DNA of 21,239 bases from a virus, in the IMG/VR virus record IMGVR_UViG_3300010148_000157, positions 1 through 21,239 of that record, one strand, 5' to 3'. Numbering within the stretch: position 1 is the stretch's first letter; each line of letters opens with the position of its first letter. The translations under genes and the position numbers were made by a program. A model generated the notes under the pieces. It was not told the origin of the DNA and made no database searches. It worked only from the letters and a program-made list of their open reading frames with translations. Shown one piece after another: positions 1 to 18,856 of the stretch.

Positions 1-1
1 A

Positions 2-694
2 CGTAAGGGTTATCAAATAGACGCTGTCAACACCCAAAAGTCCCAATCTTTAGCTGAAGAAAGACAAAAAATTCAACAGCGTGAAGACGAACTGAGTAAG
101 GTGATCCCATATCTAAGTCAAGCTGCTAATCAGTATACCCAGAAACTTCAATCTGAATTAGTTCAACCAGACAAGACACTGGAGCAGACAGACCCAATTG
201 AGTACAACCGACAAGTTGCAGACTACGTGATGAAGACCCAGGAATTAGCGCAAGCTAAGGAAGAGGCTAGGCAAGCGCAAGAAGCTGCGCAACAGCAAGC
301 ACTTGTACAACACCAGCAACGTGTTCAAGATGAGTATGTAAAATTACAAACTAACATACCCCATCTAAAGGATCCAGTTAAACGCCAAAAAATATCAAAG
401 GAAATGGCAAAATACGCTAGCGAGATAGGCTACAGCAATGAGGAATTTTCTCAACTGTTTGACCATCGAGATGCCACAACTTTATTTAAGGCAATGCAAT
501 GGGACAGGCTCCAGGCAAGGAAACCGACTACCCTTAAAGAAGTCGCAGCCAAGCCAAAGGTTGGAACAATTAAGTCATCAGCCAGACGCAGTAACAATGA
601 AATTGGACAACAAAGATATAAGGATGCAAGAGCAAAATTAAAGAAGACTGGTGATGTAAGAGACGCAGCAGCAGTATTCCTTAATCACGTTTAA
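2..694 (+). CDS. scaffolding protein, C-terminal part (5' end outside window)
   Basis: The reading frame is open from the first bases, so this is the 3' part of a longer gene; the GTG at 101 is internal. The visible part is almost entirely charged and helical: a Gln/Glu/Lys/Ala-rich stretch (coding about 240-340) typical of a coiled coil, then a basic C-terminus ending in a helix with the pattern KKTGDVRDAAAVFL. Low complexity, high charge and a basic C-terminal helix directly upstream of the capsid gene are what scaffolding proteins of podoviruses look like; they template procapsid assembly and bind the coat through the basic tail. No protease or connector motif is seen. The call rests on position and composition rather than on a diagnostic motif. 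The gap to the capsid gene is 35 bases and contains only a ribosome binding site. Confidence 0.7.
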   Translation, partial: RKGYQIDAVNTQKSQSLAEERQKIQQREDELSKVIPYLSQAANQYTQKLQSELVQPDKTLEQTDPIEYNRQVADYVMKTQELAQAKEEARQAQEAAQQQALVQHQQRVQDEYVKLQTNIPHLKDPVKRQKISKEMAKYASEIGYSNEEFSQLFDHRDATTLFKAMQWDRLQARKPTTLKEVAAKPKVGTIKSSARRSNNEIGQQRYKDARAKLKKTGDVRDAAAVFLNHV

Positions 695-729
695 TTTAAC
701 CTCAATTTTCATTTAATGGAGAATATATT

Positions 730-1674
730 ATGGCATTAGCTACTAACGCCTTGACCTCATATTCAGCTGTTGGTAATCGAGAAGATTTACAAGATACTAT
801 TTATTCTATCGCACCAACTGACACGCCAATTATGAGCGCCATAGGGCAAACCTCAGCAGCAGCGACAACGCACGAATGGCAAACAGATGCCCTAGCGTCA
901 GCTGCTACTAATAACGCACAACTTGAGGGCGATGAAATTTCTGTTGCTGCAAGTTCTGCAACAACCAGGGTAACAAATATTTGTCAGATCATGAATAAAA
1001 CCGTTACCGTTACTGGATCGCAAGAAGCTGTTAACAGTGCTGGCAGAGCGTCAGAACTGGCATACCAACTTGCCAAGCGCAGTAAAGAGCTAAAAAGAGA
1101 CATCGAGGCTACCATTACTGCTAACCAAGGCCAGGCAGCTGGCAACGCTACTACTGCTAGAAAGATGAGAGGACTACCATCCTGGTTATCTACTAACATT
1201 AGTAAAGCTGGTGGATCTGCTGCTAACGCAACTGGTGCAACTGCTGGTAGAACTGACGGCACTCAAAGAGCGCTTACAGAAGCAATCTTAAAAGATGTTA
1301 TCAAACAAGCATGGGACGAAGGTGGTGAGCCTACAGTCGTTACTGTTGGATCTTTTAATAAGGGTGTTATCAGTGGATTTACTGGTAGATCCCAGGCAAG
1401 GCAAAACATTGCAGCAGACAGCATTCAAGCAGCAGCTGCACTCTACATTGGTGACTTTGGCACATACACAATTACGCCAAATCGTTTCCAACGTGCAAGA
1501 GACGCATTTGTCTTAGATCCTTCAATGGCATCACTGGCTTACTTAAGACCAGTTCAAACTATTGAATTAGCGAAAACTGCTGATGCTGAAAAAAGAGCGC
1601 TTATTACTGAGTTGACATTAGTCATTAATAATGAAGCTGCTCACGGTGGAGCATTTGACCTAACAACATCGTAA
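730..1674 (+). CDS. major capsid protein, SU10/DUF5309 type
   Basis: 314 residues. The N-terminus carries the signature I associate with SU10-like (DUF5309) coat proteins: NREDLQDTIYSIAPTDTPIM, then THEWQTD around residue 49, a Lys/Arg-rich helix (about 115-125, KRSKELKRDIE) and a C-terminal beta strand region ending ELTLVINNEAAHGG. The length fits the family, which has the HK97 fold and lacks a large delta domain. It builds the icosahedral head with the upstream scaffold. The start is set by a GGAG ribosome binding site (717-723) 6-10 bases before ATG. A strong intrinsic terminator follows, as is usual for a capsid gene, whose message is needed in the greatest amount. Confidence is high from motif pattern and context. 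Confidence 0.92.
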   Translation: MALATNALTSYSAVGNREDLQDTIYSIAPTDTPIMSAIGQTSAAATTHEWQTDALASAATNNAQLEGDEISVAASSATTRVTNICQIMNKTVTVTGSQEAVNSAGRASELAYQLAKRSKELKRDIEATITANQGQAAGNATTARKMRGLPSWLSTNISKAGGSAANATGATAGRTDGTQRALTEAILKDVIKQAWDEGGEPTVVTVGSFNKGVISGFTGRSQARQNIAADSIQAAAALYIGDFGTYTITPNRFQRARDAFVLDPSMASLAYLRPVQTIELAKTADAEKRALITELTLVINNEAAHGGAFDLTTS

Positions 1675-1700
1675 TTCCTGTTTTTCCTCCAGGATTACTT

Positions 1701-1729
1701 GGGGCGCTCTTAGGGGCGCCCTCTTTTTT
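1701..1729 (+). terminator. intrinsic terminator after the capsid gene
   Basis: GGGGCGC (1701-1707) pairs with GCGCCCT (1716-1722), a 7-bp stem with one G-U pair and an 8-base loop, followed by one C and six T (1724-1729). GC-rich stems are rare in this AT-rich window, so it stands out. It lies 27 bases after the capsid stop codon and would reduce transcription into the downstream tail genes. Confidence 0.85.
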
Positions 1730-1740
1730 ATAGGATTTTT

Positions 1741-2034
1741 ATGAAAAAATTATTAGACAAAACTGCTAATGGTAGGATCAACGAATACTTTGACTACGAT
1801 CCAATAACGCAAAAGGTCACTATTTACAGACAGGAATACGTCAACCCAGTAGTTGATTTTGCGCAAGCGCTACACAATGAAGCGCCTTTAGACAAAGACA
1901 TGAAATTAGCTGCAATGGTTCCAGATCATGTACTGACGCACGCCCTACAAAATAAATGGGGCGATGACGATTGGAAGAGATGGGCAAATAATTCAGATAA
2001 CGACAAATTAAGAGTGTACAAAGGGAATTTGTAA
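1741..2034 (+). CDS. conserved small phage protein between capsid and adaptor
   Basis: 97 residues, no membrane segment or signal peptide. The second half has the pattern PLDKDMKLAAMVPDHVLTHALQ followed by DDDWKRWANNSDNDKLRVYKG. I recognise this as a family commonly placed between capsid and adaptor genes in marine podoviruses: a hydrophobic helix, then Trp-rich acidic text and a C-terminal basic strand. Its role is unknown to me; a virion or assembly role is inferred only from position. The start has AGGA (1732-1735) upstream of ATG, and the gene begins 11 bases after the terminator. The stop overlaps the next start in a TAATG, implying coupled translation with the adaptor. Confidence 0.8.
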   Translation: MKKLLDKTANGRINEYFDYDPITQKVTIYRQEYVNPVVDFAQALHNEAPLDKDMKLAAMVPDHVLTHALQNKWGDDDWKRWANNSDNDKLRVYKGNL

Positions 2035-2657
2035 TGGCCTTAAATACTTACGCATTATTGCAAACATCGATAGCTGACCAGTTAAACAGGACTGACTTAA
2101 CAGCTGAGATTAAAGACGCAATACTGTTAACAGAAAAAAGATTAAACAGAGTATTAAAATACCCAAAATTAGAAAAGCGTGCCACTGCAACACTCAACGC
2201 AGAATTTGAGGCAGTGCCATCTGATATGCTGGAAATGGTCAGTATTAAACTAAAGACAAACCCAGAAAGTACAGTTGAGCAAGTATCATACGATCAATTA
2301 CATGAACTTGTGCCGTCAACGTCTACTGGCAAGCCACGTTACTTTGCCAGGCAAGGCAAGGAATTAACATTTAGGCCAATACCAGACGCAACAGGCTACA
2401 CAGCAGAACTTATTTACCAGGCAGAAATATCAGAATTATCAGACAGTAATACGACTAATGACGTGTTAACTGACTTTCCAGATTTATATCTTTACGGCTC
2501 ACTTATACACATGGAGGCACACGTAAAGAACGACGAAAGAATTGCCCTTTGGACAACGCTTTTTAACGAGGCATTACTAGAGGCGCAAAAGAACTCCCAG
2601 GCAAGTAAATACGGTGGGGGATTACTTAGAATGAAACCAGGCTTTGCAGTTACATAA
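2034..2657 (+). CDS. head-to-tail adaptor (tail tubular A / gp6-like)
   Basis: 207 residues. The N-terminal half is helical (LNTYALLQTSIADQLNRTDL, then a second helix with EKRLNRVLKYP), followed by a beta region with FEAVPSDMLEMVSIK and FRPIPDATGYTAELIYQAE, and a long C-terminal helix beginning FPDLYLYGSLIHMEAHVKND. That arrangement matches phage adaptor proteins that sit beneath the portal and join it to the tail nozzle. The C-terminal Tyr/Leu-rich helix that scaffolds the ring is well preserved. It is coupled to the preceding gene by a TAATG overlap. In most podoviruses the nozzle gene follows directly; here the fibre array separates the two by about 6.5 kb. Confidence 0.8.
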   Translation: MALNTYALLQTSIADQLNRTDLTAEIKDAILLTEKRLNRVLKYPKLEKRATATLNAEFEAVPSDMLEMVSIKLKTNPESTVEQVSYDQLHELVPSTSTGKPRYFARQGKELTFRPIPDATGYTAELIYQAEISELSDSNTTNDVLTDFPDLYLYGSLIHMEAHVKNDERIALWTTLFNEALLEAQKNSQASKYGGGLLRMKPGFAVT

Positions 2658-2669
2658 GGAGAAACAATC

Positions 2670-3104
2670 ATGTCTGCTTTAACAAATGACGCTGAGAATA
2701 TCATGTTAGATATTTTACTTGGCAAACGAACATCCCAGGACGGTGGAACTACTAGCACTGCTAATATGTACGCTGCAATGGGTTTATCAACATCAATATA
2801 CGTAGGACTACACACAGCGTCACCAGGAGAAGCTGGATCTACATCTAATGAATTAAGTGGTAATAACTATTCTAGAACATTAGCAGCATTTGATGCAGCT
2901 TCTAGTGGAGCAAGTGATAATAGTGGTTCTGTCGAGTTTCCAATAGCTAGTGGAACTTGGGGAACAATATCACATTTTAGTCTACATACTGCGTCAACTG
3001 GTGGAACAATGTTAGTTCACGGTGCTGTTACAACATCTAAATCTGTAGTCAGTGGAGATACAATTAGATTTTCAGCTGGTGACTTAGACATAAGTATTGA
3101 CTAA
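2670..3104 (+). CDS. tail fibre-like protein (small, beta-rich)
   Basis: 144 residues. After a short helical N-terminus the protein has the pattern YVGLHTASPGEAGS, then NYSRTLAAFDAA, WGTISHFSLHTA and a C-terminal TSKSVVSGDTIRFSAGDL. This set of motifs is familiar from small phage tail proteins usually annotated as tail fibre proteins; it is expected to be an all-beta virion component. It has a strong ribosome binding site, AAGGAG (2656-2661), and ends in a TAATG overlap with the large fibre gene, which supports joint production. Base composition is like that of the backbone genes (CCAGG sites present), unlike the genes that follow. The exact place in the virion is unknown. Confidence 0.7.
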   Translation: MSALTNDAENIMLDILLGKRTSQDGGTTSTANMYAAMGLSTSIYVGLHTASPGEAGSTSNELSGNNYSRTLAAFDAASSGASDNSGSVEFPIASGTWGTISHFSLHTASTGGTMLVHGAVTTSKSVVSGDTIRFSAGDLDISID

Positions 3105-4675
3105 TGGCATTAGTAATAGCTGACAGAGTTAAGGAAACTACAACCTTAACTGGGACGTCAAATGCAATAAATTTAGGTGGCGCATTTACAAGTTTTTCTA
3201 CTTTTGCCAGTCACATGACAAATAATGACACTACGTATTACTGTATAGAGGATACGAGTGGTGGCTTTGAAATAGGCCTGGGAACTTACAATAGTTCGTC
3301 TAATAACATTGCCAGGACAACAATACTTAAAAGCAGCAACAGTAATAACGCTGTCAATTGGTCATCTGGATCTAAATCCGTATTTATAACTGTGCCAGCA
3401 GATAAGTTTTTTATCAAAGACGCAAACGGTAACAATTCAAGTATAGATGCAAAAGCACCACTAGCTTCACCATCTTTAACTGGAAATCCTACAGCACCAA
3501 CTCAATCAGCTAGTGATAACTCTACAAAAATAGCAACAACGGCTTATGTAGATAATCAAGTCGCAACGGAAAATACCATTGCTGAAATGGATGATGTAAC
3601 GATTACAAGTATCGGTGATAATGAAATTCTACAGTACAATAATTCAACCTCAAAATTTGAAAATCAAACATTAGCAGAAGCTGGAATACTTACTGGTAAT
3701 CAAACTATCACATTAAGTGGTGACGTTAGTGGTTCTGGCACTACTTCAATAGCAGTTACAATAGCTGACGATAGCCATAATCATACCATAGCCAATGTAG
3801 ATGATTTGCAAACAACTTTGGATGCGAAATCTACTGCAAGTAAAACGGAAACACTTACTAACAAAACATTTGATGTTGAAGGTACTGGAAACTCAATCTC
3901 TAACATTGACGTAGCAGACTTAAAGACTGGAGTATTAGATACTGATATATCAAGTGTATCTGGAAGTGATGATACTTTAGCTTCAGCCAAAGCTATTAAA
4001 ACTTATGTTGATAGTCAAACTGTAAGTGGATCAGTTACAGGCATTACATCAATTACTAACGCAAGTTTAGTTATAGGGCGTGATGCTGATAATGATATAG
4101 ACTTTAGTACAGATAATGCTATTGTATTTAGAGCAAATGGACAAGACCAAATAAGACTTATCGATGGTGCTTTACGACCTAGCACAGATAATGATGTAAA
4201 TTTAGGTATTGTTGGTGCAGAATTTAAAGATTTATACTTAGATGGCACTGCTAATGTTGATGGCATAAGTAATTCTGGCAATATATCAAATCTTGGATAT
4301 ATATGGCAACAAACTGATGGTCAAATTGTATACTTTGGTACTAGTGCTGAAGTTCGTTTAACTCATGTACATAATGAAGGGCTACAATTGTATCAGGCTA
4401 ATCAATTACAATTCCGTGATGGTGATATTAATATTGGTTCACCAGCCGATGGTGATTTAGATATTAATGCTGATGATGAAATAGAACTTAATGCAACATT
4501 AATAGATATTAATGGCAATCTTGATGTTTCTGGGTCATTAACATTAGGTGGCACTGCAATTACATCAACAGCAACAGAATTAAATCATTCTGATGGTGTA
4601 ACATCTAATATTCAAACACAACTAGATGCCAAAGCAACAAAAGGTTTTGCAACAGCTATGGCTATAGCACTTTAA
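3104..4675 (+). CDS. long tail fibre with marine-phage anchor domain
   Basis: 523 residues. Residues 1-105 form an anchor domain recognised from many marine phage fibres (ADRVKETTTLTG, then NDTTYYCIEDTSGGFEIGLG and SVFITVPADKFF). Residues 140-153 carry STKIATTAYVDNQV, a hallmark of tail fibres, followed by repetitive beta-helix-like text with TASKTETLTNKTFDVEG (245-260), a second AKAIKTYVDSQ (295-305) and TELNHSDGVTSNIQTQLDAK near the end. It most likely forms a trimeric receptor-binding fibre. The anchor part uses backbone-like bases (CCAGG, GGCGC), while the part after residue ~110 does not, so the gene appears chimeric. No chaperone domain is visible at the C-terminus. The start overlaps the previous stop. 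Confidence 0.85.
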   Translation: MALVIADRVKETTTLTGTSNAINLGGAFTSFSTFASHMTNNDTTYYCIEDTSGGFEIGLGTYNSSSNNIARTTILKSSNSNNAVNWSSGSKSVFITVPADKFFIKDANGNNSSIDAKAPLASPSLTGNPTAPTQSASDNSTKIATTAYVDNQVATENTIAEMDDVTITSIGDNEILQYNNSTSKFENQTLAEAGILTGNQTITLSGDVSGSGTTSIAVTIADDSHNHTIANVDDLQTTLDAKSTASKTETLTNKTFDVEGTGNSISNIDVADLKTGVLDTDISSVSGSDDTLASAKAIKTYVDSQTVSGSVTGITSITNASLVIGRDADNDIDFSTDNAIVFRANGQDQIRLIDGALRPSTDNDVNLGIVGAEFKDLYLDGTANVDGISNSGNISNLGYIWQQTDGQIVYFGTSAEVRLTHVHNEGLQLYQANQLQFRDGDINIGSPADGDLDINADDEIELNATLIDINGNLDVSGSLTLGGTAITSTATELNHSDGVTSNIQTQLDAKATKGFATAMAIAL

Positions 4676-4686
4676 GGAAAATATAT

Positions 4687-5022
4687 ATGGCACAAGATTT
4701 TGAACGTACAATAACTAAAGACATAGATGCTTCTTTAACAGATATAAGAGCAACATCTGACTCTGATGATGCAATAGTTGGATTACGATTAGTTAACACC
4801 ACAACTTCTACAATAACGGCTAGAGTAGCCATAACAGATAACTCAAATAATGTTACAGCTTTCTTAATTAAAAATGCACCAATACCAAGTGGTTCATCAT
4901 TAGAACTTATAGATGGTGGTGCGAAGATAGTCTTACAATCTGGAGATAAGTTAAGAGCTGGATCAGATGCAACAGACTCTATGGATGTTGTTGTGTCAGC
5001 AGTAGATACAATATCGGAGTAA
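4687..5022 (+). CDS. small beta-sandwich-like fibre-module protein
   Basis: 111 residues, no signal or membrane segment. Alternating polar and hydrophobic residues predict a beta sandwich; the stretch IPSGSSLELIDGGAKIVLQSGD (split by predicted turns) resembles small marine phage proteins found beside fibre genes. Function is unknown to me; a decorating or fibre-associated role is inferred from its position between two fibre genes. AAGGAA (4673-4678) serves as ribosome binding site. Base usage is that of the AT-richer fibre island. Confidence 0.65.
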   Translation: MAQDFERTITKDIDASLTDIRATSDSDDAIVGLRLVNTTTSTITARVAITDNSNNVTAFLIKNAPIPSGSSLELIDGGAKIVLQSGDKLRAGSDATDSMDVVVSAVDTISE

Positions 5023-5028
5023 TAACTT

Positions 5029-5982
5029 ATGGGTCACATAGGAAAAACAGTAAGTCAAAACGTAGTCAGTGGAAGTGAGATAACTGATGGTACAGTTACT
5101 GGTGCAGATTTAGCGAGTGATATTGTAATATCAACAACTACAAGCAATACAACTAATGGAACTTTTTTAAATACTGGTGGTCACAATACGGCAAATGGTG
5201 TTGTCCATGTAAAACAAAGTGGTGCAACTAATAATCCTACAATGGTTTTAGAACAAGTTGGTGATGGTGGTAATAGTGGAGATACTCAAGGATTACATAT
5301 TAAAATGGGTGGTCAAAATCAAGGCACTGGTAAAGCTATAAGGGTTACAACAACTAATGCAAATCTTAATAGTGGTAGTGCTTATGATGCCTTTTCATTT
5401 ACAAATGGTGGTGAAATAGATGTAAAAAATTCATCAAATCAAGATACATTAAACTTGAGTTCGGCTGGTTATCTTACAAAACCAAGACACCCATATTTTG
5501 CTGTAAGAAGAGGAAATAGTGCTGGTGAGCAAATGGTTAATGCATCAAACTCTGGTTCAGTAGCAGTTCCAGTTACGTTTGATACAGAAGAACTAGACCC
5601 TTTTAGTATGTTTAATAATTCTACTTACAAAGTATCTATTCCAGTAAGTGGTGTTTATGCATTTCATTTTTCAATTTTAACTGGGATTTTAATACCTAGT
5701 TCTGGTGTAAATTGGTGTTCTTATGAATTAATGTTAAATGACAGTACTGCTTCAAGAATATCTGGCACACCAAAAATGTATGAAGAAGTATATAATGCTA
5801 GTGGAAGTGCAAATGCTGGAGTTGGGGGTAGTGGAAGATATTTCAAAAAAGTAACTGGCAGTTGTCAAGTTTATGTTAGTTCAAGCGATACAGTAAGATT
5901 AATGTTTTATTGTACAGATAGTACAAATGCTAGAATACATAGTGGTTCACACTCTACATTTTGTGGATATTTATTAGGTTAA
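5029..5982 (+). CDS. fibre protein with C-terminal C1q-like head
   Basis: 317 residues. Residues 1-150 are Gly/Asn/Thr-rich and repetitive (VSGSEITDGTVTGADLASDI near the start), typical of a fibre shaft. Residues 151-317 look like a C1q/TNF-type jelly roll: PYFAVRR, FDTEELDPFSMFNNSTYKVS, IPVSGVYAFHFSI, and a closing SHSTFCGYLLG. In that fold the D-x-x-x-MF-N-x-S-T-Y and SGVY strands are the characteristic core. Such heads trimerise and bind ligands, so this is a good candidate for receptor recognition. Two cysteines (in NWCSYE and TFCGYL) are unusual in this protein set. Fold assignment is by motif pattern only; the binding partner cannot be read from sequence. Confidence 0.75.
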   Translation: MGHIGKTVSQNVVSGSEITDGTVTGADLASDIVISTTTSNTTNGTFLNTGGHNTANGVVHVKQSGATNNPTMVLEQVGDGGNSGDTQGLHIKMGGQNQGTGKAIRVTTTNANLNSGSAYDAFSFTNGGEIDVKNSSNQDTLNLSSAGYLTKPRHPYFAVRRGNSAGEQMVNASNSGSVAVPVTFDTEELDPFSMFNNSTYKVSIPVSGVYAFHFSILTGILIPSSGVNWCSYELMLNDSTASRISGTPKMYEEVYNASGSANAGVGGSGRYFKKVTGSCQVYVSSSDTVRLMFYCTDSTNARIHSGSHSTFCGYLLG

Positions 5983-5997
5983 TGAGGAGTATATATA

Positions 5998-6267
5998 ATG
6001 CCAAAATACACAGTTGAAATTACAGATATTGAAGATAAAGCAATGTCTTATATAGCAGTAGAAGTGCAAAATTGGATAGATACTGCTGTTACTGAAAGAG
6101 CAAGAAGAGCAAAAGCAGATATACTTGAATTGAATATGAAACATTGCAATGCAAATGGAATAGCTATAGCAGAAAATCCAGATAAACAACTTGAACAAGC
6201 ATTTACTTTGGGTGTTGTTAAAGCACTTAAAGATGTTTCTGAAAGTCCAGAAAGAAGTGGAGATTAA
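5998..6267 (+). CDS. small fibre-module protein of unknown function
   Basis: 89 residues, acidic and mainly helical, with an N-terminal strand (KYTVEITDIEDKAM) followed by a helix containing VEVQNWIDTAVTERARRAKAD. It resembles small proteins next to fibre genes in marine phages, but I cannot assign a function. The ribosome binding site GAGGAG (5984-5989) is strong and well placed. It sits between the C1q-type fibre and the S74 fibre, so a helper or structural role in fibre assembly is a reasonable guess and no more. Confidence 0.6.
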   Translation: MPKYTVEITDIEDKAMSYIAVEVQNWIDTAVTERARRAKADILELNMKHCNANGIAIAENPDKQLEQAFTLGVVKALKDVSESPERSGD

Positions 6268-6271
6268 TTAG

Positions 6272-7732
6272 ATGCCTTATATTGGTAAAGGTGCAAACGG
6301 ATTTGGAATAAGAGAAACTTTCCAGTACACAGCCACATCAAATCAAACGGCTTTTACAGGATCAGATATCAATTCTAAAACCCTGTCATTTGATAATGGT
6401 TCCCTGGTAGATGTCCTATTAAATGGAGTAATGTTAAAACCTACGACTGATTATAATACTAGTACAGCTAATACGATTACTCTGGTAAGTGGTGCATCTA
6501 CATCTGATGAAGTGATGATAGTCGTGTATGATGTCTTCAGCTTATCTGATGCCTTAAGTAAGTCTGGTGGGGCGATGTCTGGAAGTATAACTAATTTTAC
6601 CTCTACTGGAATAGATGACAATGCTGATGCTACGGCTATTACTATAGACAGTTCAGAACGAGTAGGTATTGGTGAAGCAAGTCCTTCTGCTCCATTACAT
6701 ATAGAAACTGGCACTACTACAGATATTTTGAGATTTGGTGCTAACGGCAGATGGGGATTTCAAAGAGCAAATAGCGATAGTCGATATCTTTCTTTTAGTA
6801 GAGCTATGAATGGTACTGCTTCTTCTGTTTTAACAGTTGATGGCGATAATGGTAATGTAGGCATAGGAGATACAACACCAACATCACCTTTAGGAGCAAA
6901 CTATAGGGCTTTAGATATTAATAGTGGAGTTTGGGGAGGTACTGTTAATTTTTCTGGAAATAGTGGTGGTTACATTGGTAACAGACACTCTGGAAATGGT
7001 GGATTAGGATATTATGCTTCTTCTAGTCAAGGACATTTTTTTCATGTGAATGGAACTACAGATGCAGTTGTTACTATGCTTTCAGATGGTAGAGTTGGTG
7101 TAGGAGATGGTGGACAAACAAATGTAAGAATGACTTTAACAGAAAATACAGATACTGATACTATTGGATTAAAAGCTACTACTGGTGCATCTAGTTTTAA
7201 TGGTATAACTATTTGGTCTGTTCATGGAAGTAGTATTGCATCGTCAGCAGTACTATATGGTGGCTACGCAAATTCTGCACACAAATTTATTGTTAGAGCC
7301 GATGGAGACATTGAAACTGCTGGTTCTACTTCACTATCTGGTATTTCCGATATTAATTTTAAAGAAAACGTAGTTGATGCAAACTCTCAATGGGATGACA
7401 TTAAAGCATTAAAAGTAAGAAACTATAGTTGGAAAGAAGATAAATTAGATAAGGCAGATAAAATAGGTCTTATTGCTCAAGAAGCTGAATTAGTAAGTCC
7501 TAATTTAGTTTTTACAAGAGATAAAATAAATGACGTTCAGTATATAAAAGATGAAAATGGTAAAGATATAGATAACCCAGACTTTGGTAAAAAAATTGAA
7601 GGCGAAACTTATAAAACTTTAAAATATTCTGTACTTTATACAAAAGCACTTAAAGCACTTCAAGAAGCTATGGAGCGAATAGAAACACTTGAAGCAAAAG
7701 TCAAAGCATTGGAGGAAGCATCTAATGAGTAA
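6272..7732 (+). CDS. tail fibre with self-cleaving S74 chaperone domain
   Basis: 486 residues. Residues 1-95 are a marine-phage anchor domain (FQYTATSNQTAFTG, VDVLLNGVMLKPTTDYN, then DEVMIVVYDVFSLSDA). Residues 100-355 are a Gly/Ser/Asn-rich shaft with repeated short patterns such as ERVGIGEASPSAPLHIETG and GNVGIGDTTPTSPLG. From residue 359 the peptidase S74 intramolecular chaperone begins: SDINFKENV with the Ser359/Lys364 dyad at the known spacing, KALKVRNYSW, IGLIAQEAELVSPN, and a terminal leucine-zipper-like coiled coil (LQEAMERIETLEAKVKALEE). In this family the chaperone trimerises, folds the shaft and is released by cleavage just before the serine, here giving a 128-residue fragment. The anchor has backbone-type bases (a CCTGG at 6403), unlike the distal part. 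It overlaps the next gene by 8 bases. Confidence 0.88.
   Translation: MPYIGKGANGFGIRETFQYTATSNQTAFTGSDINSKTLSFDNGSLVDVLLNGVMLKPTTDYNTSTANTITLVSGASTSDEVMIVVYDVFSLSDALSKSGGAMSGSITNFTSTGIDDNADATAITIDSSERVGIGEASPSAPLHIETGTTTDILRFGANGRWGFQRANSDSRYLSFSRAMNGTASSVLTVDGDNGNVGIGDTTPTSPLGANYRALDINSGVWGGTVNFSGNSGGYIGNRHSGNGGLGYYASSSQGHFFHVNGTTDAVVTMLSDGRVGVGDGGQTNVRMTLTENTDTDTIGLKATTGASSFNGITIWSVHGSSIASSAVLYGGYANSAHKFIVRADGDIETAGSTSLSGISDINFKENVVDANSQWDDIKALKVRNYSWKEDKLDKADKIGLIAQEAELVSPNLVFTRDKINDVQYIKDENGKDIDNPDFGKKIEGETYKTLKYSVLYTKALKALQEAMERIETLEAKVKALEEASNE
7711..7716 (+). promoter_or_regulatory. ribosome binding site GGAGGA that fixes the next start
   Basis: GGAGGA at 7711-7716 lies 8 bases before the ATG at 7725, inside the 3' end of the S74 fibre gene. 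It decides the start of the following gene: an in-frame ATG at 7689 has no such site and would overlap the coiled coil by 44 bases. Confidence 0.75.
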
Positions 7733-8318
7733 TGCACGATTAAGAAGCTCAATGAAAACTCCTAGTGGTTTTCTTTTAAATGAAACAACTATTAGTAATG
7801 ATGCTAACATTAATTTTGGGAGTTCTCTTATAACTGATGATTATGATCTTTATGATGTTTATGTAAAAGATTTAATTCCAGCTACAGATAATGTTCAATT
7901 ACAATGTAGATTAGGTGTTGGGGGTTCTATTGATACTGGCACTAACTATTCAACTCATTCACAAATGTGGGGTACAAAGTCTAGTGATGTTGGAGAAAAT
8001 ACTTCTGCTAATCAGTCATCGTCTGCTAAATTTCATTTAACAGCTAGTACAGATCAATCATTGGGAACAGGAGATGGAGAGTCTTGGAACGGAAGATATA
8101 GATTTATTAATTTAAGAAGCACAACATTTATTAAAGGTATGCAAGGATTAGATTCAGGTGGAATGACATCTACTGAATATTTTTCAGTACTTAGATCAAG
8201 CAAATATGTTAGTAAATATAATGTTAATCGAACAAGTAAAGTTGATACAATAAGTATTTTTGCAAGTTCTGGAAATTTAACAAGTGGTACAATAAGTTTA
8301 TATGGTATTAAAACATGA
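7725..8318 (+). CDS. fibre-module protein, beta-rich
   Basis: 197 residues from the ATG at 7725, chosen because GGAGGA precedes it and because the overlap with the preceding gene is then only 8 bases. The N-terminal part (SSLITDDYDLYDVYVKDLIP followed by TDNVQLQCRLGVGGSIDTGT) matches a family of phage proteins near tail fibres that I know as uncharacterised beta-sandwich proteins: a Tyr-Asp-x-Tyr strand, then a Leu-x-x-Arg strand and a Gly/Ser loop. No catalytic motif is seen. It probably binds glycans or caps a fibre, but this is inference from fold class and neighbours. The stop overlaps the next start in an ATGA. Confidence 0.7.
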   Translation: MSNARLRSSMKTPSGFLLNETTISNDANINFGSSLITDDYDLYDVYVKDLIPATDNVQLQCRLGVGGSIDTGTNYSTHSQMWGTKSSDVGENTSANQSSSAKFHLTASTDQSLGTGDGESWNGRYRFINLRSTTFIKGMQGLDSGGMTSTEYFSVLRSSKYVSKYNVNRTSKVDTISIFASSGNLTSGTISLYGIKT

Positions 8319-8614
8319 CAAAATTATACCAACAAATAGACGGAGTTAAAGTTGAATTAACTGCTGAAGAAATTGCATTAAAAGAAAAAGAAGAAAAAGA
8401 GTGGGAAGACGAAAAGCCTGTAAGAATAAAGGAAAGTTTAAGAAATAGAAGAGAACCTTTGTTATTCGAAGCTGATTATAAAATAAATACACTTGTAGAT
8501 AATGGTGGTGATGCATCTGCTTGGAGAAAGTATAGACAAGAGCTTAGAGACATTACTAAAGCATCTGACTTAAATAATGTAACATTTCCAAATAAACCAG
8601 ATGATGTTGATTAA
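8315..8614 (+). CDS. tail fibre assembly chaperone-like protein
   Basis: 99 residues, strongly charged. It has the pattern of phage tail assembly chaperones (Phage_tail_APC-like): a charged helical N-terminal half (LTAEEIALKEKEEKEWED), then RNRREPLLFEADY, a Trp-containing AWRKYRQELRDI and a closing P-rich tail (TFPNKPDDVD). The Arg-Asn-x-x-Glu-x-x-Leu, Tyr-Arg-Gln-x-Leu-Arg-Asp-Ile and final Pro-rich segment are the recognisable positions. Such proteins help fibres fold or attach and are not part of the virion. It closes the AT-richer fibre island and overlaps both neighbours (ATGA before, TAATG after). Confidence 0.75.
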   Translation: MTKLYQQIDGVKVELTAEEIALKEKEEKEWEDEKPVRIKESLRNRREPLLFEADYKINTLVDNGGDASAWRKYRQELRDITKASDLNNVTFPNKPDDVD

Positions 8615-9204
8615 TGCTAGGCCATTACCCTTTATCAGCGCATTCCATTGCGTCTGCTGGCCATAAATTCCAGGATTTTGCTGCAAGTATTTCATCAGCA
8701 TTAACTGTTTCATCAACTGTTGTATTAATTAGAGAAAACGCAGCCAATAGACCTACAACTGTCGTAGGCACTGGAACAATAAAACTAATTAATGGCGCAG
8801 CTGGTAGCGCAAGTTCATCCTTGGCAACGTCTGGTGGAATGACAGCAATTTTTTCTGGGGCAGCAAATGTATCAACGTCTGCTACAACGACAGGCGCTGT
8901 AAAGTTAATACGTAATGCAAGTGGAAATGCATTAACAGCTGTTACAAGTGCTGGTTCCATAAATTTAATTAGAGGTGTAGATGGTTCTGTATCAGTTGCT
9001 GTAAATCAAAGTACTGAAATGAACGCAATACTAGCACTAGTGGCCAACGTAACAGGCACTGCGCCTATGACAGCATTACTAACTATACTAGGTGACATTT
9101 GGACAGTACAAAATGCTAGTTCAACGTCATTTAGTACGCAATCAGCAGCTAGTACAAGTTACGCAGAGCAAGCGACAACAACAACAGAATATTTGGTACA
9201 ATAA
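8614..9204 (+). CDS. repeat-rich low-complexity virion-type protein
   Basis: 196 residues of Ala/Ser/Thr/Val-rich repeats. Residues about 20-155 contain degenerate units of about 30 residues in which a hydrophobic strand (VVLIRENAA, IKLINGAAG, VKLIRNASG, INLIRGVDG) alternates with a Thr/Ser/Ala strand. Residues 163-196 are a second repeat type of exactly ten residues: aromatic, two any, Gln, then Ala/Ser/Thr text (WTVQ, FSTQ, YAEQ, YLVQ). No signal peptide. I recognise similar repeat proteins from marine phage tail regions but no function. Bases return to the backbone type here (CCAGG at 8670, GCGC at 8638). It lies just before the nozzle gene and overlaps it by one base, so a tail-associated role is likely. 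Confidence 0.65.
   Translation: MLGHYPLSAHSIASAGHKFQDFAASISSALTVSSTVVLIRENAANRPTTVVGTGTIKLINGAAGSASSSLATSGGMTAIFSGAANVSTSATTTGAVKLIRNASGNALTAVTSAGSINLIRGVDGSVSVAVNQSTEMNAILALVANVTGTAPMTALLTILGDIWTVQNASSTSFSTQSAASTSYAEQATTTTEYLVQ
9100..9201 (+). repeat. 3.4 ten-residue coding repeats, aromatic-x-x-Gln
   Basis: Four in-register units with periods of exactly 30 bases encode WTVQNASSTS, FSTQSAASTS, YAEQATTTTE and a final YLVQ. The aromatic residue at place 1 and Gln at place 4 are invariant, while the DNA itself has diverged, so the pattern is maintained at protein level. Confidence 0.8.
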
Positions 9205-10670
9205 TGGCAAAAAAACTATTTTCAATTAGAGGATCACAATTAACTGAAAGTGGTATTTTTAAGTCTACTCATGCCCTGGACGCACCGTTATGGACAGATG
9301 GCGTAAACGTCATATTTAAAAATGGTGGCGCACAAAAGATTGGTGGAAGTACACAAGTCGCAACACAAAGTGTGACAACACCAGTAAGAGGCGCAGAGGC
9401 TTATCAATTAAGTGACAATATCCAAAGGTTGTTTTTTGGCACTACAGATAAATTATACATGTATGTCCCTGGAACTGGAATTACCCAGGAAGGCACTGGC
9501 TACAGTGGTAATGAACATGAAGGCGCTACTAGCATTGCAACAACTTGGTCATTTACGTCATTTGGAGATCTTGTAATAGCAACTAACGGCACGTCAGCGC
9601 CTCAAATATGGAAACTGACAACTGACGCCTTTGCAGCGCTGTCAAGTGAAACAAATGCCACTGGTGTTCCAAGTACAGCAGAAATAGTAATGAGAATTAG
9701 AGGCCATATACTATTGTTTAATACTAACAGTGGTGACAATACTATTGCATTTAGTGACGTAGAAAGTCCTCACATATACACGCCAACAAGTACAAATGCA
9801 GCTGGATCACTAGTAGTGAGAGACATGAATGGCGCTATTAAAGCTGCTGTACCATTTAAGGATGGCGCATTAGTTTTAGGTAAAGACCAGGCGTTTACTG
9901 TTAAATATGTTGGGTCACCGTTTTTCTTTACTTACAAGCAAGTTACAACAGGCATAGGCGCTGTGTCTAAGGCCAGTGTAATAGTTGTGAATAACATTGC
10001 CTACGGCATGGGACAAAGAGGTATATGGCAATTTGACGGCCTTAATTACAAGTATATTGATACACCAGCACTACAGGAATTTATCCAGGCAAATTGGGAA
10101 GACAGTGAGTTATCTAAGGTTTGCGCTACGTATGACTTAGAAAATAAAACAATTTACTGGTTTATCCCCACTGCTAACAATTCAGAAAATAGCCTGGGCG
10201 TTGTGTATAATGTGCAAAACGGTAGTTGGTCACGCATTGACTTTGGACGTACTGCTGCTGTTCCTTACATGGGAGCATTTAAGCATCCATACATGTTTGC
10301 GCATTCTGGTAGTACAGCAAGTTTAAGATCACATAACACTGAAGTAAATGACAATGGATCTGCATTATCAGCAACATTGACGTCAAAGCCACTAGATTTT
10401 AATGAAGCAAATTTATTTAAAAGTATTACTTTTGTGTCACTGCAAATGAGAACACTGACAGGAACTGTAAACGTCAGATTAGGTACACAAAATAATTTAG
10501 ATGACAGCGTGTCATTTTCGTCATCGACTGCCCTGGACGATGGTTTTGAAAAAATTAACGTAAGGCAAACAGGGCGCTTTATTACTTTAGAAGTATCCAG
10601 TACTGCCACAGGCGCTAACTGGGCAATGACTGGATTTGATATGCATGGTGTTCCAGCTGGGAGGATATAA
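9204..10670 (+). CDS. tail nozzle/hub-like structural protein
   Basis: 488 residues, beta-rich throughout. The N-terminus has LDAPLWTDGVNVIFKNGGAQ (26-43), a Trp-Thr-Asp-Gly-Val-Asn-Val pattern common to podovirus tail tube/nozzle proteins, where the strand WxxGxNVxFxxGxxxKxGG recurs. Further strands alternate with Gly turns (RLFFGTTDKLYMY, FGDLVIATNGTSAPQIWK, RGHILLFNT, IAYGMGQRGIWQFDG), suggesting a beta-propeller-like body as in P22 gp10-type hubs. It would form the lower tail, through which DNA passes, below the adaptor. Overlaps on both sides (one base each) fit coupled translation. The alternative is another large tail protein; there is no enzymatic motif. Confidence 0.72.
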   Translation: MAKKLFSIRGSQLTESGIFKSTHALDAPLWTDGVNVIFKNGGAQKIGGSTQVATQSVTTPVRGAEAYQLSDNIQRLFFGTTDKLYMYVPGTGITQEGTGYSGNEHEGATSIATTWSFTSFGDLVIATNGTSAPQIWKLTTDAFAALSSETNATGVPSTAEIVMRIRGHILLFNTNSGDNTIAFSDVESPHIYTPTSTNAAGSLVVRDMNGAIKAAVPFKDGALVLGKDQAFTVKYVGSPFFFTYKQVTTGIGAVSKASVIVVNNIAYGMGQRGIWQFDGLNYKYIDTPALQEFIQANWEDSELSKVCATYDLENKTIYWFIPTANNSENSLGVVYNVQNGSWSRIDFGRTAAVPYMGAFKHPYMFAHSGSTASLRSHNTEVNDNGSALSATLTSKPLDFNEANLFKSITFVSLQMRTLTGTVNVRLGTQNNLDDSVSFSSSTALDDGFEKINVRQTGRFITLEVSSTATGANWAMTGFDMHGVPAGRI

Positions 10671-11884
10671 TGCCTATACTTCCTCAACGTGGCCAGGATG
10701 AAGAAGCTAACGAATACCTAGACAGAATACTGCCAGAACTAAATGAAATATTAGAAAATTCTGTTAGTGGTGGCGCATTTGTAAAAGACGGTAAAATATT
10801 TGTAAAAGTTGTTTCACCGTACAATGCAGCAGATAAAGACTTAGAATTAGGCAAGATGCTTACTAATTCTGCAAATATAGTAACAATAGACACTGAGAAG
10901 TTAGAAGACGCAGCTGTTACCCTGGCTAAAGTTGCTAATGGATCTATTAGTGGTGATAAGCTAGTTACAAGTGAAGCCGTTATAACGCAAAGCGCTCAAA
11001 TAGGTGACGCTACAATACTGACTGCTGCTATTGGTGACGCACAAATAACAAACGCAAAAATAGGCAGTTTAGACGCTAATAAAATAACATCTGGGTCACT
11101 TGCAGCAGATCGACTAGGCGCCAATAGTATTACGGCTGGCAAGATAGCAGCAGACACAATAACAAGTGACAAGATTGCAGCCAATGCCATTACAAGTAGT
11201 GAGTTAGCGAGTGACGCTGTAACAGCAAATAAAATTGCAGCGAATGCAGTGACAACTGATAAGTTATCAGCAAATAGTATTACAAGTGCAAAGTTAGCTA
11301 CAAGTAGTCTTATAACCCAATCAGCGCAGATAGATGACGGTATTATTACGAATGCTAAAATAAACAGTCTAAACGCAGATAAAATTAGTGGTGGCACAAT
11401 AAGTGCTAGTTTTTTGTCTGGTGGTACTCTTACTATTGGATCTGGTGGTATAGAAACTATTGTAGGATCCTTTAACCCAGCAAACTTAAACGCTGGCGTT
11501 ATTTTACAAGTATTAGCTAATAGTGTTGGACGAGGTAGTGGAACAAGTACATCAACCATTCCAAGTACTACATTTACGTCAACGAATAATACTTCATTTA
11601 ATACAGATGCAGTTGTCATATTAATTGCTAATGCAAGTACATTTTCATCTGGACAGGGAACGCAAATAGCTACACGTTTTATGACAGGGTCAACGGCTTT
11701 GGCATTAACTCAAACGGCAGCTTGCAGTGGCGCTGGAAATGCTGATGTTCGCATACACGCAGCTAGAGTACAATTAAACAAAAATCAGCAGTACTTTGCC
11801 AGTATATCATTTAATGACAATGGACAAGGCGAAGCTGGTCAAGGAACAGGATCAGCTGTAATTTTAGAAGTCAGACGAGTTTAA
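10670..11884 (+). CDS. tail protein with decad (beta-helix-like) repeats
   Basis: 404 residues. Residues 1-75 are a globular N-terminus with a predicted strand region (GAFVKDGKIFVKVVSP). Residues 81-240 are ten-residue repeats in register, clearest at 151-210: ANSITAGKIA, ADTITSDKIA, ANAITSSELA, SDAVTANKIA, ANAVTTDKLS, ANSITSAKLA. Such IT-x-x-KIA repeats occur in phage central tail and fibre proteins, where they form a slender trimeric beta shaft. Residues from about 275 form a compact C-terminal domain with many Thr/Ser, possibly a tip. It follows the nozzle gene, so it may be a central spike or tail-tip fibre. Receptor binding is inferred, not shown. Start overlaps the nozzle stop (TAATG). 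Confidence 0.72.
   Translation: MPILPQRGQDEEANEYLDRILPELNEILENSVSGGAFVKDGKIFVKVVSPYNAADKDLELGKMLTNSANIVTIDTEKLEDAAVTLAKVANGSISGDKLVTSEAVITQSAQIGDATILTAAIGDAQITNAKIGSLDANKITSGSLAADRLGANSITAGKIAADTITSDKIAANAITSSELASDAVTANKIAANAVTTDKLSANSITSAKLATSSLITQSAQIDDGIITNAKINSLNADKISGGTISASFLSGGTLTIGSGGIETIVGSFNPANLNAGVILQVLANSVGRGSGTSTSTIPSTTFTSTNNTSFNTDAVVILIANASTFSSGQGTQIATRFMTGSTALALTQTAACSGAGNADVRIHAARVQLNKNQQYFASISFNDNGQGEAGQGTGSAVILEVRRV
11120..11299 (+). repeat. six exact-length 30-base coding repeats
   Basis: Six consecutive 30-base units encode the ten-residue pattern (A/S)(N/D)-x-(I/V)T-x-x-(K/E)(I/L)(A/S). No unit is inserted or missing in this block; flanking units are more degenerate. The DNA copies differ at many third positions, so they are old. 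Confidence 0.85.
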
Positions 11885-12255
11885 TGAACGTAAAGCCACA
11901 ATCCAGTCCAGAGGATTGGATTAGACTGGAACAGTACATTGATGACAGTCTCAGCGTAGGCGTAAGACTGTACACAGTTACTGATATATTTAAAGCTATT
12001 AGTACTGGTGAGATGCAGTTTTGGCCAGGTAGAGACTGCGTCATGGTCACAAGTATAATTAATTACCCACAATGCAAAATGTTAGACATTGTAGTGGGTG
12101 GAGGTAACTTGAAAGAGTTACTGTCAATGGAAAAGATTTTAGCTATTTACGCAAAGCAACACGGTTGCAAATACCTAAGCACTGGGGGTAGGCGTGGATG
12201 GTTTAAAGCAACTAAAAGTCAACACCAAGTAATAACCGTTTTTAAGGAGATATAA
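11884..12255 (+). CDS. small GNAT-like phage protein
   Basis: 123 residues. The order of elements matches short acetyltransferase-like proteins seen in tail/ejection regions of marine podoviruses: N-terminal helix (PEDWIRLEQYID), a strand-containing MQFWPGRDCVMVTSI, a hydrophobic beta strand with CKMLDIVVGGGNLKEL (65-79, the usual acetyl-CoA-side beta bulge place), a helix (MEKILAIYAKQHGCK) and the C-terminal GCKYLSTGGRRGWFK (94-108). The family core Gly-Arg-x-Gly-Trp is kept. Substrate is unknown; modification of a virion or host protein or a purely structural use of the fold are both possible. It overlaps the genes on both sides by one base, so it is made together with tail and ejection proteins. 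Confidence 0.65.
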   Translation: MNVKPQSSPEDWIRLEQYIDDSLSVGVRLYTVTDIFKAISTGEMQFWPGRDCVMVTSIINYPQCKMLDIVVGGGNLKELLSMEKILAIYAKQHGCKYLSTGGRRGWFKATKSQHQVITVFKEI

Positions 12256-13076
12256 TGCCTAGTAAACAAAAAGTAGCAACAACTACATCGACAACAGATA
12301 TACCAGAGTGGATGAAACAGGACTACGTAATACCAGCACTAGATAAAGCTAAGGGTATGCTAGACGATGAATTTACGCCATTTACAGGCGATAGATTTGC
12401 TGACAAATCACAGTTTACAACTGACGCTATGAACAAAATAACTGGTATGTCTGGCATGTCTTTAAAAGACAGATCCGATTACATGAACCCATTTACAAAT
12501 GAAGTTATAGACGCCAGTAACCAGGTAATTAAAGATGAAACAATGGCTTTGAACACAGATCTTTTAGGTAACAGCTACAACATTGGCGCAGACACTAATA
12601 CCAGGGTTGGCGTTGCCCAGGGTGAGTTAGCGAATTCGGCAGCAGACGCCATAGCTGATAACACCAGTAGATTAAAAATGGCTGGATTTCAGCAAGCTGG
12701 CCAGGATATGTTGCAAGACTTTAATTTAGGCGTGTCACAAGCTGACAACTTATATAAAGCTGGCGCAGTAGACCAGTCATTTGACCAACAACAAAAAGAC
12801 TTTGACTATGGCGAATTTTTGGGCGCCCAAGGTCAAGAAGCCAAAAACTTAAATCAATTACTGGCAGCTATTGCTGGCGTTCCACAAGGCCAGGTATCTA
12901 CGCAACAAACACCGTACACGAGTAACCCATTTGCTACAGCTATTGGCATAGGCAGTAAAATTATGATGCCTCAAATGGGATTTATGTCTGGCACTGGTGG
13001 CCTGTCACCTTTTGGGTTAGGAACTGGTGGTTTTAATCCTTTTAGTGGCTTTAATCCATTTCAATTTGGGATATAA
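12255..13076 (+). CDS. DNA ejection / internal virion protein
   Basis: 273 residues. Residues 16-40 (IPEWMKQDYVIPALDKAKGM) and YMNPFTNEVIDA (76-87) are a pattern I recognise from podovirus ejection proteins, in which Tyr-x-Asn-Pro-(F/Y)-Thr-x-x-Val-Ile-Asp precedes a long Gln/Asp/Asn-rich helical region (about 90-215). The C-terminus is Gly/Phe/Pro-rich with the repeat GFNPFSGFNPFQFG. Proteins of this kind are packaged in the head and enter the host with the DNA. It is the first of three such genes in a row, and its start overlaps the GNAT-like gene by one base. The Phe-Pro tail could mark membrane contact or a packaging signal; that is inference. Confidence 0.72.
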   Translation: MPSKQKVATTTSTTDIPEWMKQDYVIPALDKAKGMLDDEFTPFTGDRFADKSQFTTDAMNKITGMSGMSLKDRSDYMNPFTNEVIDASNQVIKDETMALNTDLLGNSYNIGADTNTRVGVAQGELANSAADAIADNTSRLKMAGFQQAGQDMLQDFNLGVSQADNLYKAGAVDQSFDQQQKDFDYGEFLGAQGQEAKNLNQLLAAIAGVPQGQVSTQQTPYTSNPFATAIGIGSKIMMPQMGFMSGTGGLSPFGLGTGGFNPFSGFNPFQFGI

Positions 13077-13079
13077 TTT

Positions 13080-14744
13080 ATGAATATTTTAGACGTAGCA
13101 ACACAGCCAACAAGTTCAAGAAAGCGCTTTGACAATTTAAGGCGTTACAATGCACTGCACTCTTTAGGTGACATGCTTATAGCGTATGGCGCACCTACAA
13201 AGGTTGGCGAAAATAATTTAAATGCGTTTATGCAAATTAGTGAAGCTGCCAATAAAAGAAATACTAATATTATGCAGCAAGAGCAGCAGTTTAACCAGGC
13301 ATCGTCATTACTGCCATTAGTTGATCAATACGCTACTTCACTTAACCTATCGCCAGAACGTATAGCACAAATCAAAGCAGATCCAGTAGGCAATGCGTCT
13401 TTTCTACAAGCATTACAAACTAATAATATGAATACGTCATTTGCTACATCTAAAGCAATTAAAGGTAATTTAGCGTCACTACAATTAGCAAAAGCAATGG
13501 GTATGCCTATGCTACAAAATAAATCTGAAGAGGAATTACAGGGTTTAAGTTCTAATACTCAACTGCAACCATTCCTACAAACCTTTATTCAAGAAAAAGC
13601 AAAAAGAGGATTTCCAGATTTACAAGTCATGCAATTAAATAATGGTCAACTTGCTGTTTTTGATAAAAATGGTATTGGATTAAAAGCTGACGGTAGTATT
13701 GATCAAAATATGATTACAATTATAGGTGACAAAAAAGCAAATACAATGAATGTCACAGAGCCTTCATACGATAAAGAAAAAGGTATGTGGATGCAAAAAA
13801 CAGTAATACTTGATAAAAATACACCAGACAAAACAAATTCATATGGATTTGCAGTTGTAGGACAATCACCATCAAGACCTTTATTTGCAGAAAAAACTTC
13901 AGATACACAAAAAGTACAAGACGCATTAGAAACATTGCAGATACCTGGAATAGATAAAAATAGTGCAGAATATAAAGCAGCTAAAATGTTTTTAGATAAG
14001 TACGCTAACCAGGGTAAAATGTCACTGGAAATAGGTGAAGACGGTTCAGTCAAATTTACGCAAGGCATGCCTGGTGATAGTGGATTATCTACTAAAATGG
14101 CTAATGACATTGACGATCAAATACTAACACTTGGTGAAGATCTTTTAAAATTAGATAATATTTTTGCTAATTTTGATCCATCATTTTTAACTTTAGGTGG
14201 AAGATTTGACAGGGCAAAACTTTCTTTTAAGGATTTAATGGCTGGCGCAATACCAGGTATAGATGCATTAGACGAGACAGAAAGAAATAGGTTATCTAGC
14301 CAAACAAATTTCTTTGCAGACGTAGCAGAACGATTTAACCAAATACTTTTAAAAATGTCTGGTGCAGCTGTTATGGAAGGTGAATTTAAACGACAAGCAG
14401 AAGCAAATCCAAACAAAAAAGATACGCCAACAGTTTTCATTACTAAAGTAAAACGCCAAATGAAATTTATTATTGGCGCTTTAGGACGATTAGATAAATT
14501 AAAAAAGCAAGGCATATCTGGTGATTTGTTTATGACAGAGTTAAAGAAAAACGGCTCTAGTATTTTTGGTGAAACTGTAGAAAGTGGTGACGAACATGTT
14601 GCTCAAATGATAACAAATAGAGCAGCTGAAATATTACAAGAAAATGAAAATTACGAACAACCTCAAGCTATTAATCTAGCTGTTCGTGAAGTATTTCAAG
14701 AACTAAACATACCACTAAGTTTTTTAAAATTTTACCGTAATTAA
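13080..14744 (+). CDS. internal virion (ejection) protein, helical
   Basis: 554 residues, mostly alpha-helical and Gln/Asn/Lys-rich, no signal peptide or clear membrane span. The N-terminal part contains SRKRFDNLRRYNALHSLGDM and a long helix (AFMQISEAANKRNTNIMQQE), while the C-terminal third has FFADVAERFNQILLKMSGAA followed by KRQAEANPNKKDTPTVFITK. I recognise it only as the type of large protein between the ejection protein and the longest internal protein of marine podoviruses. No lytic transglycosylase motif is seen. Function inferred from length, helicity and position. Its ribosome binding site is weak, and only three bases separate it from the previous stop, so translation may depend on coupling. 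Confidence 0.65.
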   Translation: MNILDVATQPTSSRKRFDNLRRYNALHSLGDMLIAYGAPTKVGENNLNAFMQISEAANKRNTNIMQQEQQFNQASSLLPLVDQYATSLNLSPERIAQIKADPVGNASFLQALQTNNMNTSFATSKAIKGNLASLQLAKAMGMPMLQNKSEEELQGLSSNTQLQPFLQTFIQEKAKRGFPDLQVMQLNNGQLAVFDKNGIGLKADGSIDQNMITIIGDKKANTMNVTEPSYDKEKGMWMQKTVILDKNTPDKTNSYGFAVVGQSPSRPLFAEKTSDTQKVQDALETLQIPGIDKNSAEYKAAKMFLDKYANQGKMSLEIGEDGSVKFTQGMPGDSGLSTKMANDIDDQILTLGEDLLKLDNIFANFDPSFLTLGGRFDRAKLSFKDLMAGAIPGIDALDETERNRLSSQTNFFADVAERFNQILLKMSGAAVMEGEFKRQAEANPNKKDTPTVFITKVKRQMKFIIGALGRLDKLKKQGISGDLFMTELKKNGSSIFGETVESGDEHVAQMITNRAAEILQENENYEQPQAINLAVREVFQELNIPLSFLKFYRN

Positions 14745-14755
14745 TAGGATAAAAA

Positions 14756-18835: not shown

Positions 18836-18853
18836 ACTTTTTTATGTTATGAT
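18823..18853 (+). promoter_or_regulatory. sigma70-like promoter candidate before the holin/lysozyme genes
   Basis: TTGTTT (18823-18828) and TATGAT (18848-18853) are separated by 19 bases, and TG at 18845-18846 gives the extended minus-10 form TGnTATGAT. A second, perfect TATAAT lies at 18868-18873 but has no good minus-35 partner. This is the only non-coding stretch of the window longer than about 70 bases, so a separate start for lysis genes is plausible. Confidence 0.45.
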
Positions 18854-18856
18854 TTT

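Follow-up and report, generated by a model that had tools for sequence, protein, structure and literature searches.

Why should some five kilobases of tail-fibre genes in a marine phage differ in composition from the genes on either side? The window analyzed here is the whole 21,239-nucleotide stretch of IMG/VR record IMGVR_UViG_3300010148_000157. A first-pass annotation, made from the sequence alone, had noted that CCAGG and GCGC sites are missing from about 3.4 to 8.6 kb, and had proposed that the distal parts of the fibres and their small companions have a different history from the virion backbone. We conclude that the segment at 3.43-8.60 kb is very probably a horizontally exchanged host-recognition cassette, carried by a podovirus-type phage with a DUF5309-type capsid.

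Composition of the island

The motif gap lies where the annotation had placed it. CCAGG occurs at position 3312 and then at 8670, with none in 3317-8669; GCGC occurs at 3180 and then at 8638, with none in 3184-8637; GGCC occurs at 3275 and then at 8620. The sole CCTGG of the gap is indeed at 6403. The longest GCGC gap spans 5,458 bases, a length reached in none of 20,000 uniform draws, and the longest CCWGG gap, cut short by the lone site at 6403, spans 3,091 bases (P = 0.004).

The change near 3.4 and 8.6 kb is also found in base composition and codon statistics. GC content is 0.341 in the island versus 0.412 to its left and 0.381 to its right, the CpG observed/expected ratio is 0.38 versus 0.70 outside, and the skew of G over C is higher in the island. 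In GC3, every one of the seven island genes falls below each of the 20 backbone genes used for comparison (Mann-Whitney U = 0, p = 1e-6). Synonymous codon use differs between island and backbone (summed chi2 208, 40 df, p ~ 1e-24), chiefly in GAT/GAC, TAT/TAC and GGT/GGC, which rules out amino-acid content as the cause of the shift. Blind dinucleotide segmentation returned 3851-8575, with a score of 108 versus block-permuted maxima of 56-93.

The tetranucleotide signature of the island correlates with the cassettes of seven other phages at r = 0.64-0.87, values partly inflated by homology between the cassettes, and with its own backbone at r = 0.31-0.35. Backbone pieces correlate at r = 0.80-0.88 among themselves and with backbone relatives. 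Within the first fibre gene, fibA, the signature switches at the breakpoint described below. The N-terminus of fibA and a fibre-like gene at 10670-11884 both keep backbone features, so the signature cannot be put down to fibre function alone.

Genes of the block and their exchange among phages

The phages and loci compared are labelled L. Three in IMG/VR are pieces of the same phage as the window: L002 matches 7982-20667 at 99.95% identity, L005 matches 1-4564 at 99.96%, and L006 matches 1-3609 at 99.6%. Both junctions are independently confirmed, because the L005 and L002 contigs cross them. L003 is 95.2% identical to the window over 1-3833 and 96.5% identical from 8599 onward, and has 3836-8598 replaced save for a hub block at 4634-5129 (88%). 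L004 and L008 are 83.8% identical to the window up to 3423 and 83% from 8610 onward; in L004, 3424-8609 is replaced, with short islands of similarity inside. Block replacement between otherwise near-identical phages is seen in both L003 and L004, which have other fibre genes in the block in the same architecture, orientation and gene order as the window. The parts of the region are as follows.

3104..3430, + strand: N-terminal anchor of the first fibre (fibA aa 1-109), backbone part; nucleotide identity 95% (L003) and 84% (L004) up to 3423
3423..3449, + strand: left exchange boundary; L004 identity stops at 3423, L098 identity begins at 3443 and L091 identity at 3449
3449..3835, + strand: shared fibre middle (fibA aa ~113-243); nucleotide identity 89.7% to L091 and 85.8% to L098, inside the 95.2% L003 match
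3836..4592, + strand: variable shaft of the first fibre; replaced in L003, L004, L091 and L098
4593..5166, + strand: hub block, made up of the fibA C-terminus, a 111-aa protein (4687-5022) and the N-terminal ~35-45 aa of the next protein; 75-90% nucleotide identity in 13 of 17 phages
5029..5982, + strand: predicted fibre/adhesin; its N-terminal anchor is conserved and its variable head C1q-like (PF00386, Pfam C1q, at aa 174-218)
5998..6267, + strand: 89-aa small companion; amino-acid identity 56% (L003), 66% (L090) and 49% (L091)
6272..7732, + strand: S74 fibre with shared N-terminus (to ~6705), variable middle and intramolecular chaperone C-terminus (Peptidase_S74 PF13884 at aa 359-413, E = 7e-10)
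7725..8318, + strand: g7725, probable distal receptor-binding protein of 197 aa, overlapping the S74 stop codon; amino-acid identity 78% (L091) and 37% (L004)
8315..8614, + strand: tail-fibre assembly chaperone (Phage_tail_APC PF16778, E = 2e-8; phrog_4912)
8598..8612, + strand: right exchange boundary, falling on the final codons of the assembly chaperone; L091, L004 and L097 identity stops at 8598-8599

The left switch coincides with the start of the tail-fibre repeat motif ASPxLTGNPTAPTQxxxDNSTKIATTAYVD, which is carried by the fibre middle, and a second breakpoint, relative to L003, L091 and L098, is at 3835. At the right boundary, identity restarts at 8599 in L003 and at 8610 in L004. The fibA anchor retains CCWGG (3277 and 3312) and GCGC (3180). 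These junctions are unusually clean for this type of swapping.

The receptor-recognition genes of the cassette, with their Peptidase_S74, C1q and Phage_tail_APC domains and tail-fibre PHROGs, suggest that its proteins bind receptors. Of 397 IMG/VR stretches that match the pattern, 365 are relatives of the 111-aa hub protein, which is also represented in 49 phage records. The protein encoded at 5029-5982 aligns well across phages at aa ~1-36 only, and 5166-5967 has no nucleotide relative among the 17 phages compared. A family search with the 89-aa companion gave no match, and PDB sequence searches with the S74 fibre and the 7725-8318 family gave no usable match. Predicted structures of the 7725-8318 and 5029-5982 proteins were of unusably low quality (pLDDT 48 and 42), and a fold search returned nothing significant. 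The N-terminus of the S74 fibre (MPYIG-type) is common to 13 phages, and its distal part is 85% identical in nucleotides to L088 over 7083-7720 and 88% identical to L089 over 7613-7739. The assembly chaperone has 82% amino-acid identity to L091 and 60-62% to L097, L105 and L111.

Parts of the block also occur in phages with other backbones. In the unrelated podovirus L091/L092, the gene upstream of the fibres encodes an internal virion protein (phrog_6651), and the capsid, scaffold and head genes of the window have no match. Nucleotide identity between L091 and the window is nevertheless 90% in the fibre middle, 89% in the small-protein hub and 84% across the last two genes; at the protein level, it is 95% for fibA aa 110-243 and 90% for the hub protein. 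L091/L092, L095, L096, L097 and L098 all share cassette genes with the window and have few or no backbone matches.

To lay out this sharing, the window was compared in 100-base steps with 17 phages. Outside the island, the map contains backbone relatives only, plus one short 67% match; at 2600-3423 and 8600-9200 essentially just two backbone relatives match, compared with as many as 13 phages at positions in the cassette. Inside it, the best neighbours change from block to block: L003, L091 and L098 at 3449-3835; L111 alone at ~3900-4290 in the shaft (90% identity); 13 phages at 4600-5000; none at 5200-5970; up to 13 at 5970-6700; L104 at ~6850-7090; L088 at 7083-7720; and L091 at 7717-8599. 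Conserved blocks alternate with variable heads along the cassette, and in these alignments the nearest relative changes across at least seven blocks, which makes the island a patchwork and not a single import. The g7725 domain is fused in L107 and L110 to the MPYIG-type N-terminus that starts the S74 fibre in the window, and heads thus move from one anchor to another. The hub gene (333 nucleotides) of L003 is 96% identical to that of L091 and ~89% identical to that of the window, and a tree pairs L003 with L091, although for so short a gene the AU test does not reject a window plus L003 grouping (p = 0.16).

Taken as nucleotide alignments, the comparisons establish whole-block replacement between near-identical backbones and block sharing with unrelated ones. 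The proposed separate history of the distal fibre parts is borne out by the replacement in L003 and L004 and the 84-90% sharing with L091, and extends, as had been suggested, to the small companions, which also lie within the mobile cassette. The edges of the annotated island match the replacement breakpoints; of its anchors, only the N-terminal ~110 codons of fibA (3104-3423) fall on the backbone side. The S74 'anchor' in which CCTGG 6403 had been placed likewise belongs to the mobile cassette.

The fibre-like gene outside the island (10670-11884) has repeats of type ITAGKIAADTITSDKIAANAITS, and its distal part (10941-10994 onward) diverges from L004 but not from L003.

Site contrasts and alternative explanations

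Under a codon-shuffle null, in which amino acids and codon counts are held fixed, the island has one CCWGG versus 0.3 expected, which is no shortage, and no GCGC versus 2.0 expected, a weak shortage. The backbone is enriched in CCWGG (46 versus 19 expected), GCGC (54 versus 22) and GATC (43 versus 25). The CCWGG/GCGC contrast is thus largely one of backbone enrichment, and we reject purging within the island as the origin of the gap, because the island's own codon usage predicts almost none of these sites. Other sites are absent from the backbone: CGCG (9.4 expected from codon shuffles), GGNCC (6.8), CCGG (8.1) and GANTC (16.6-30 expected). The case for CCGG absence as restriction avoidance is weakened by a second-order Markov expectation of ~1.4, CCG and CGG themselves being rare. 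With CCGG discounted, the absence of CGCG, GGNCC and GANTC stays striking.

The four GANTC sites of the window are all in the island, at 4759 and 4975 in the hub block and at 8079 and 8151 inside the 7725-8318 gene. In four phages with two unrelated backbones (the window, L003, L004 and L091), there are none in 68,163 bases of backbone and 11 in 19,592 bases of cassette; the P value of 7e-8 assumes independent sites, and not all 11 are independent, because L091 7412 and 7484 match window 8079 and 8151 by position. GANTC is a sharper marker of the cassette than CCWGG/GCGC.

Several further site patterns were seen. The backbones of the window (1-3423 and 8613-21239), L003, L004 and L008 all lack GANTC, CGCG, GGNCC, CCGG and AAGCTT, and this lineage is enriched in CCWGG, GATC, GCGC and CAGCTG. 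GGCC occurs 24 times in the window versus none in 25 kb of L004. The non-palindromic word CGGA is absent from the backbone (19.7 expected from codon shuffles) and occurs six times in the island. In L094 (20 kb) and L092, CCWGG and GCGC are nearly absent and CCSGG is enriched ~5-6-fold, a pattern complementary to that of the window lineage, as if CCNGG had switched between W and S types.

These contrasts could be taken to mean that the backbone is the odd part, a phage C5 methyltransferase and past restriction pressure having enriched CCWGG/GCGC and purged GANTC, CGCG and GGNCC. We judge this close to an even call, leaning slightly against it. Backbone CCWGG and GCGC exceed the codon-shuffle expectation ~2.4-fold, against counts close to expectation in the island. 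The 36.9-kb relative that holds L004 encodes a cytosine-C5 methyltransferase (PF00145) lying across the two ends of its contig; among solved structures, its catalytic half is nearest to M.HhaI. This candidate enzyme lies outside the window fragment. The account would cover the CCAGG/GCGC contrast but leaves the block replacement, the shared blocks in unrelated phages and the switch in codon usage unexplained. No N6/N4 adenine methyltransferase (PF01555) was found in the window, L003, L004, L092 or L094 records. The methyltransferase account is compatible with an exchanged cassette, and both can hold. The two methyltransferase pieces are at L193 1-492 (- strand) and L194 1267-1947 (- strand), the two ends of the 36.9-kb contig, and the same stretch is also open over long runs in a second reading frame.

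It is improbable that the composition is intrinsic, with fibre genes being AT-rich and CpG-poor from protein make-up or expression level and not from foreign origin. The cassettes of L003, L004 and L091 and the fibre regions of SAR11 isolates all have GC contents of 0.33-0.35, and in L004 backbone and cassette scarcely differ (0.34 versus 0.33). However, synonymous codon use differs with amino acids fixed, the fibA N-terminus and the 10670-11884 gene keep the backbone signature outside the island, and the edges of the island coincide with replacement breakpoints. The cassettes of all phages compared are AT-rich and CpG-poor, so part of the composition may still be intrinsic to fibre genes.

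A metagenome assembly chimera that joined a fibre block to the backbone would account for blocks with different nearest relatives, but we consider it very remote, given the independent contigs across both junctions, reading frames that continue through every junction, and the shared architecture with different inserts in L003 and L004. Fibres are the usual targets of diversity-generating retroelements and invertible systems, but hypermutation or inversion in place of import is just as implausible, as the phages differ by whole blocks swapped for non-homologous sequence and not by point changes within a short repeat, and orientation and gene order are identical in relatives.

Proposed exchange mechanism, known systems and GANTC in other phages

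For a cassette exchanged between phages, the conserved blocks (the fibA repeat motif, the 4687 hub, the MPYIG-type S74 N-terminus and the assembly chaperone) could serve as sites at which homologous or homeologous recombination swaps the heads, and a head swap would change the receptor recognized. Single-strand annealing recombinases, which two sharing phages appear to encode, probably help: L094 codes for a RecT-like annealing protein and a RecE-like exonuclease, and a RecT-like match also occurs in the L092 record. Proteins of this type are reported to recombine diverged DNA (PMC2327257, PMC3945230). Two annealing-protein families detected no recombinase in the window's own lineage, and therefore the enzyme of the donor or host may act. 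We infer that the island looks foreign because its composition is that of a cassette pool circulating among marine alphaproteobacterial phages, and because it has probably spent too little time in the present backbone to adopt its codon use or lose GANTC.

The phenomenon is already known, in that metaviromic islands, shared modules and domain shuffling cover the exchange. Metaviromic islands (Mizuno et al. 2014, PMC3909814) are under-recruiting regions in near-identical marine phages, including those of SAR11, that hold tail-fibre, C1q-domain and tail-fibre-assembly genes and in which fibre C-termini vary more than N-termini; the gene content, the setting in near-identical phages and the variable C-termini are as in the window. 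They were defined by read recruitment, whereas the window cassette is defined by contig comparison, breakpoints and donor-like blocks in unrelated backbones. In the Alteromonas phages A5, V22 and P24 (PMC10579305), a fibre and its cognate chaperone are likewise common across families with no homology elsewhere, but that module has ~59% similarity and ten genes including injection machinery, unlike the 84-90% nucleotide blocks, recombination inside genes and backbone anchor left behind seen here. Receptor-binding protein domain shuffling (PMC10684548) similarly joins a constant N-terminus to a C-terminus exchanged across taxonomic boundaries; in the window, several adjoining fibre genes are shuffled jointly within one cassette. 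Like the window backbone, GANTC-depleted pelagiphages (PMC9516812) have lost all or nearly all copies of the alphaproteobacterial CcrM-type site; their depletion is reported as genome-wide density by clade, whereas the window shows backbone-only depletion with the remaining sites confined to the cassette. What is new is that the breakpoints are resolved, that the patchwork has several donors, and that the cassette alone escapes the loss of GANTC.

These results place exactly, inside genes, the points at which a receptor-binding cassette is exchanged as it moves among unrelated marine phages, and show that a single contig can be enough to flag recent imports by composition and site avoidance. 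Where unrelated phages have fibre blocks in common and avoid GANTC completely, as the window lineage and L091/L094 do, they are candidates for sharing a host, which matters for uncultured phages lacking known hosts.

Pelagibacter and other alphaproteobacteria methylate their DNA at GANTC, a site in which about half of 33 pelagiphages are depleted (PMC9516812). Its avoidance here thus makes an alphaproteobacterium the likely host. Genome contigs scanned for relatives as a host clue yielded none; relatives of the hub protein are found in SAR11, SAR116 and Roseobacter phages, and also in cyanophages and others.

In five SAR11 isolates with roughly normal backbones, fibre GANTC is 22 versus 66 expected, the most depleted of 243 spaced words, and in Roseobacter phage CRP-1 it is 2 versus 14 expected in the fibre region and 23 versus 25 in the backbone. 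Cyanophage Syn5 has no fibre GANTC depletion. Among 35 non-redundant IMG/VR loci, the GANTC ratio is 0.70 in fibre genes versus 0.78 in the rest and is lower in the fibre genes in just 8 of 17 pairs; the isolates had suggested a general scarcity of GANTC in fibre genes, which is not replicated there. GATC in the same loci stands at 0.31 in fibre genes (80 versus 261 expected) and 0.73 in the rest (223 versus 307). Another proposal, in which every site avoided by any carrier would be missing from the cassette, was dropped, as expected counts were too small and CpG words are generically low.

The cassettes of the window, L003, L004 and L091 have 11 GANTC versus 37 expected, and their backbones none. 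It is conceivable, if rather doubtful, that cassettes experience a time-averaged restriction/methylation regime, between complete GANTC loss and normal density, because they might move through phages and hosts with different sets of avoided sites. In that case, the sites still left in a cassette could be used to date its transfer and to trace its path.

The Pelagibacter phage HTVC011P (L181, 39.9 kb) has no GGNCC, CCGG, CGCG, GCGC, GGCC, CCWGG or AAGCTT, and a single GANTC, at 33623 in the fibre region. Its GATC count is zero in the fibre and backbone genes tested, and an anti-restriction protein is annotated.
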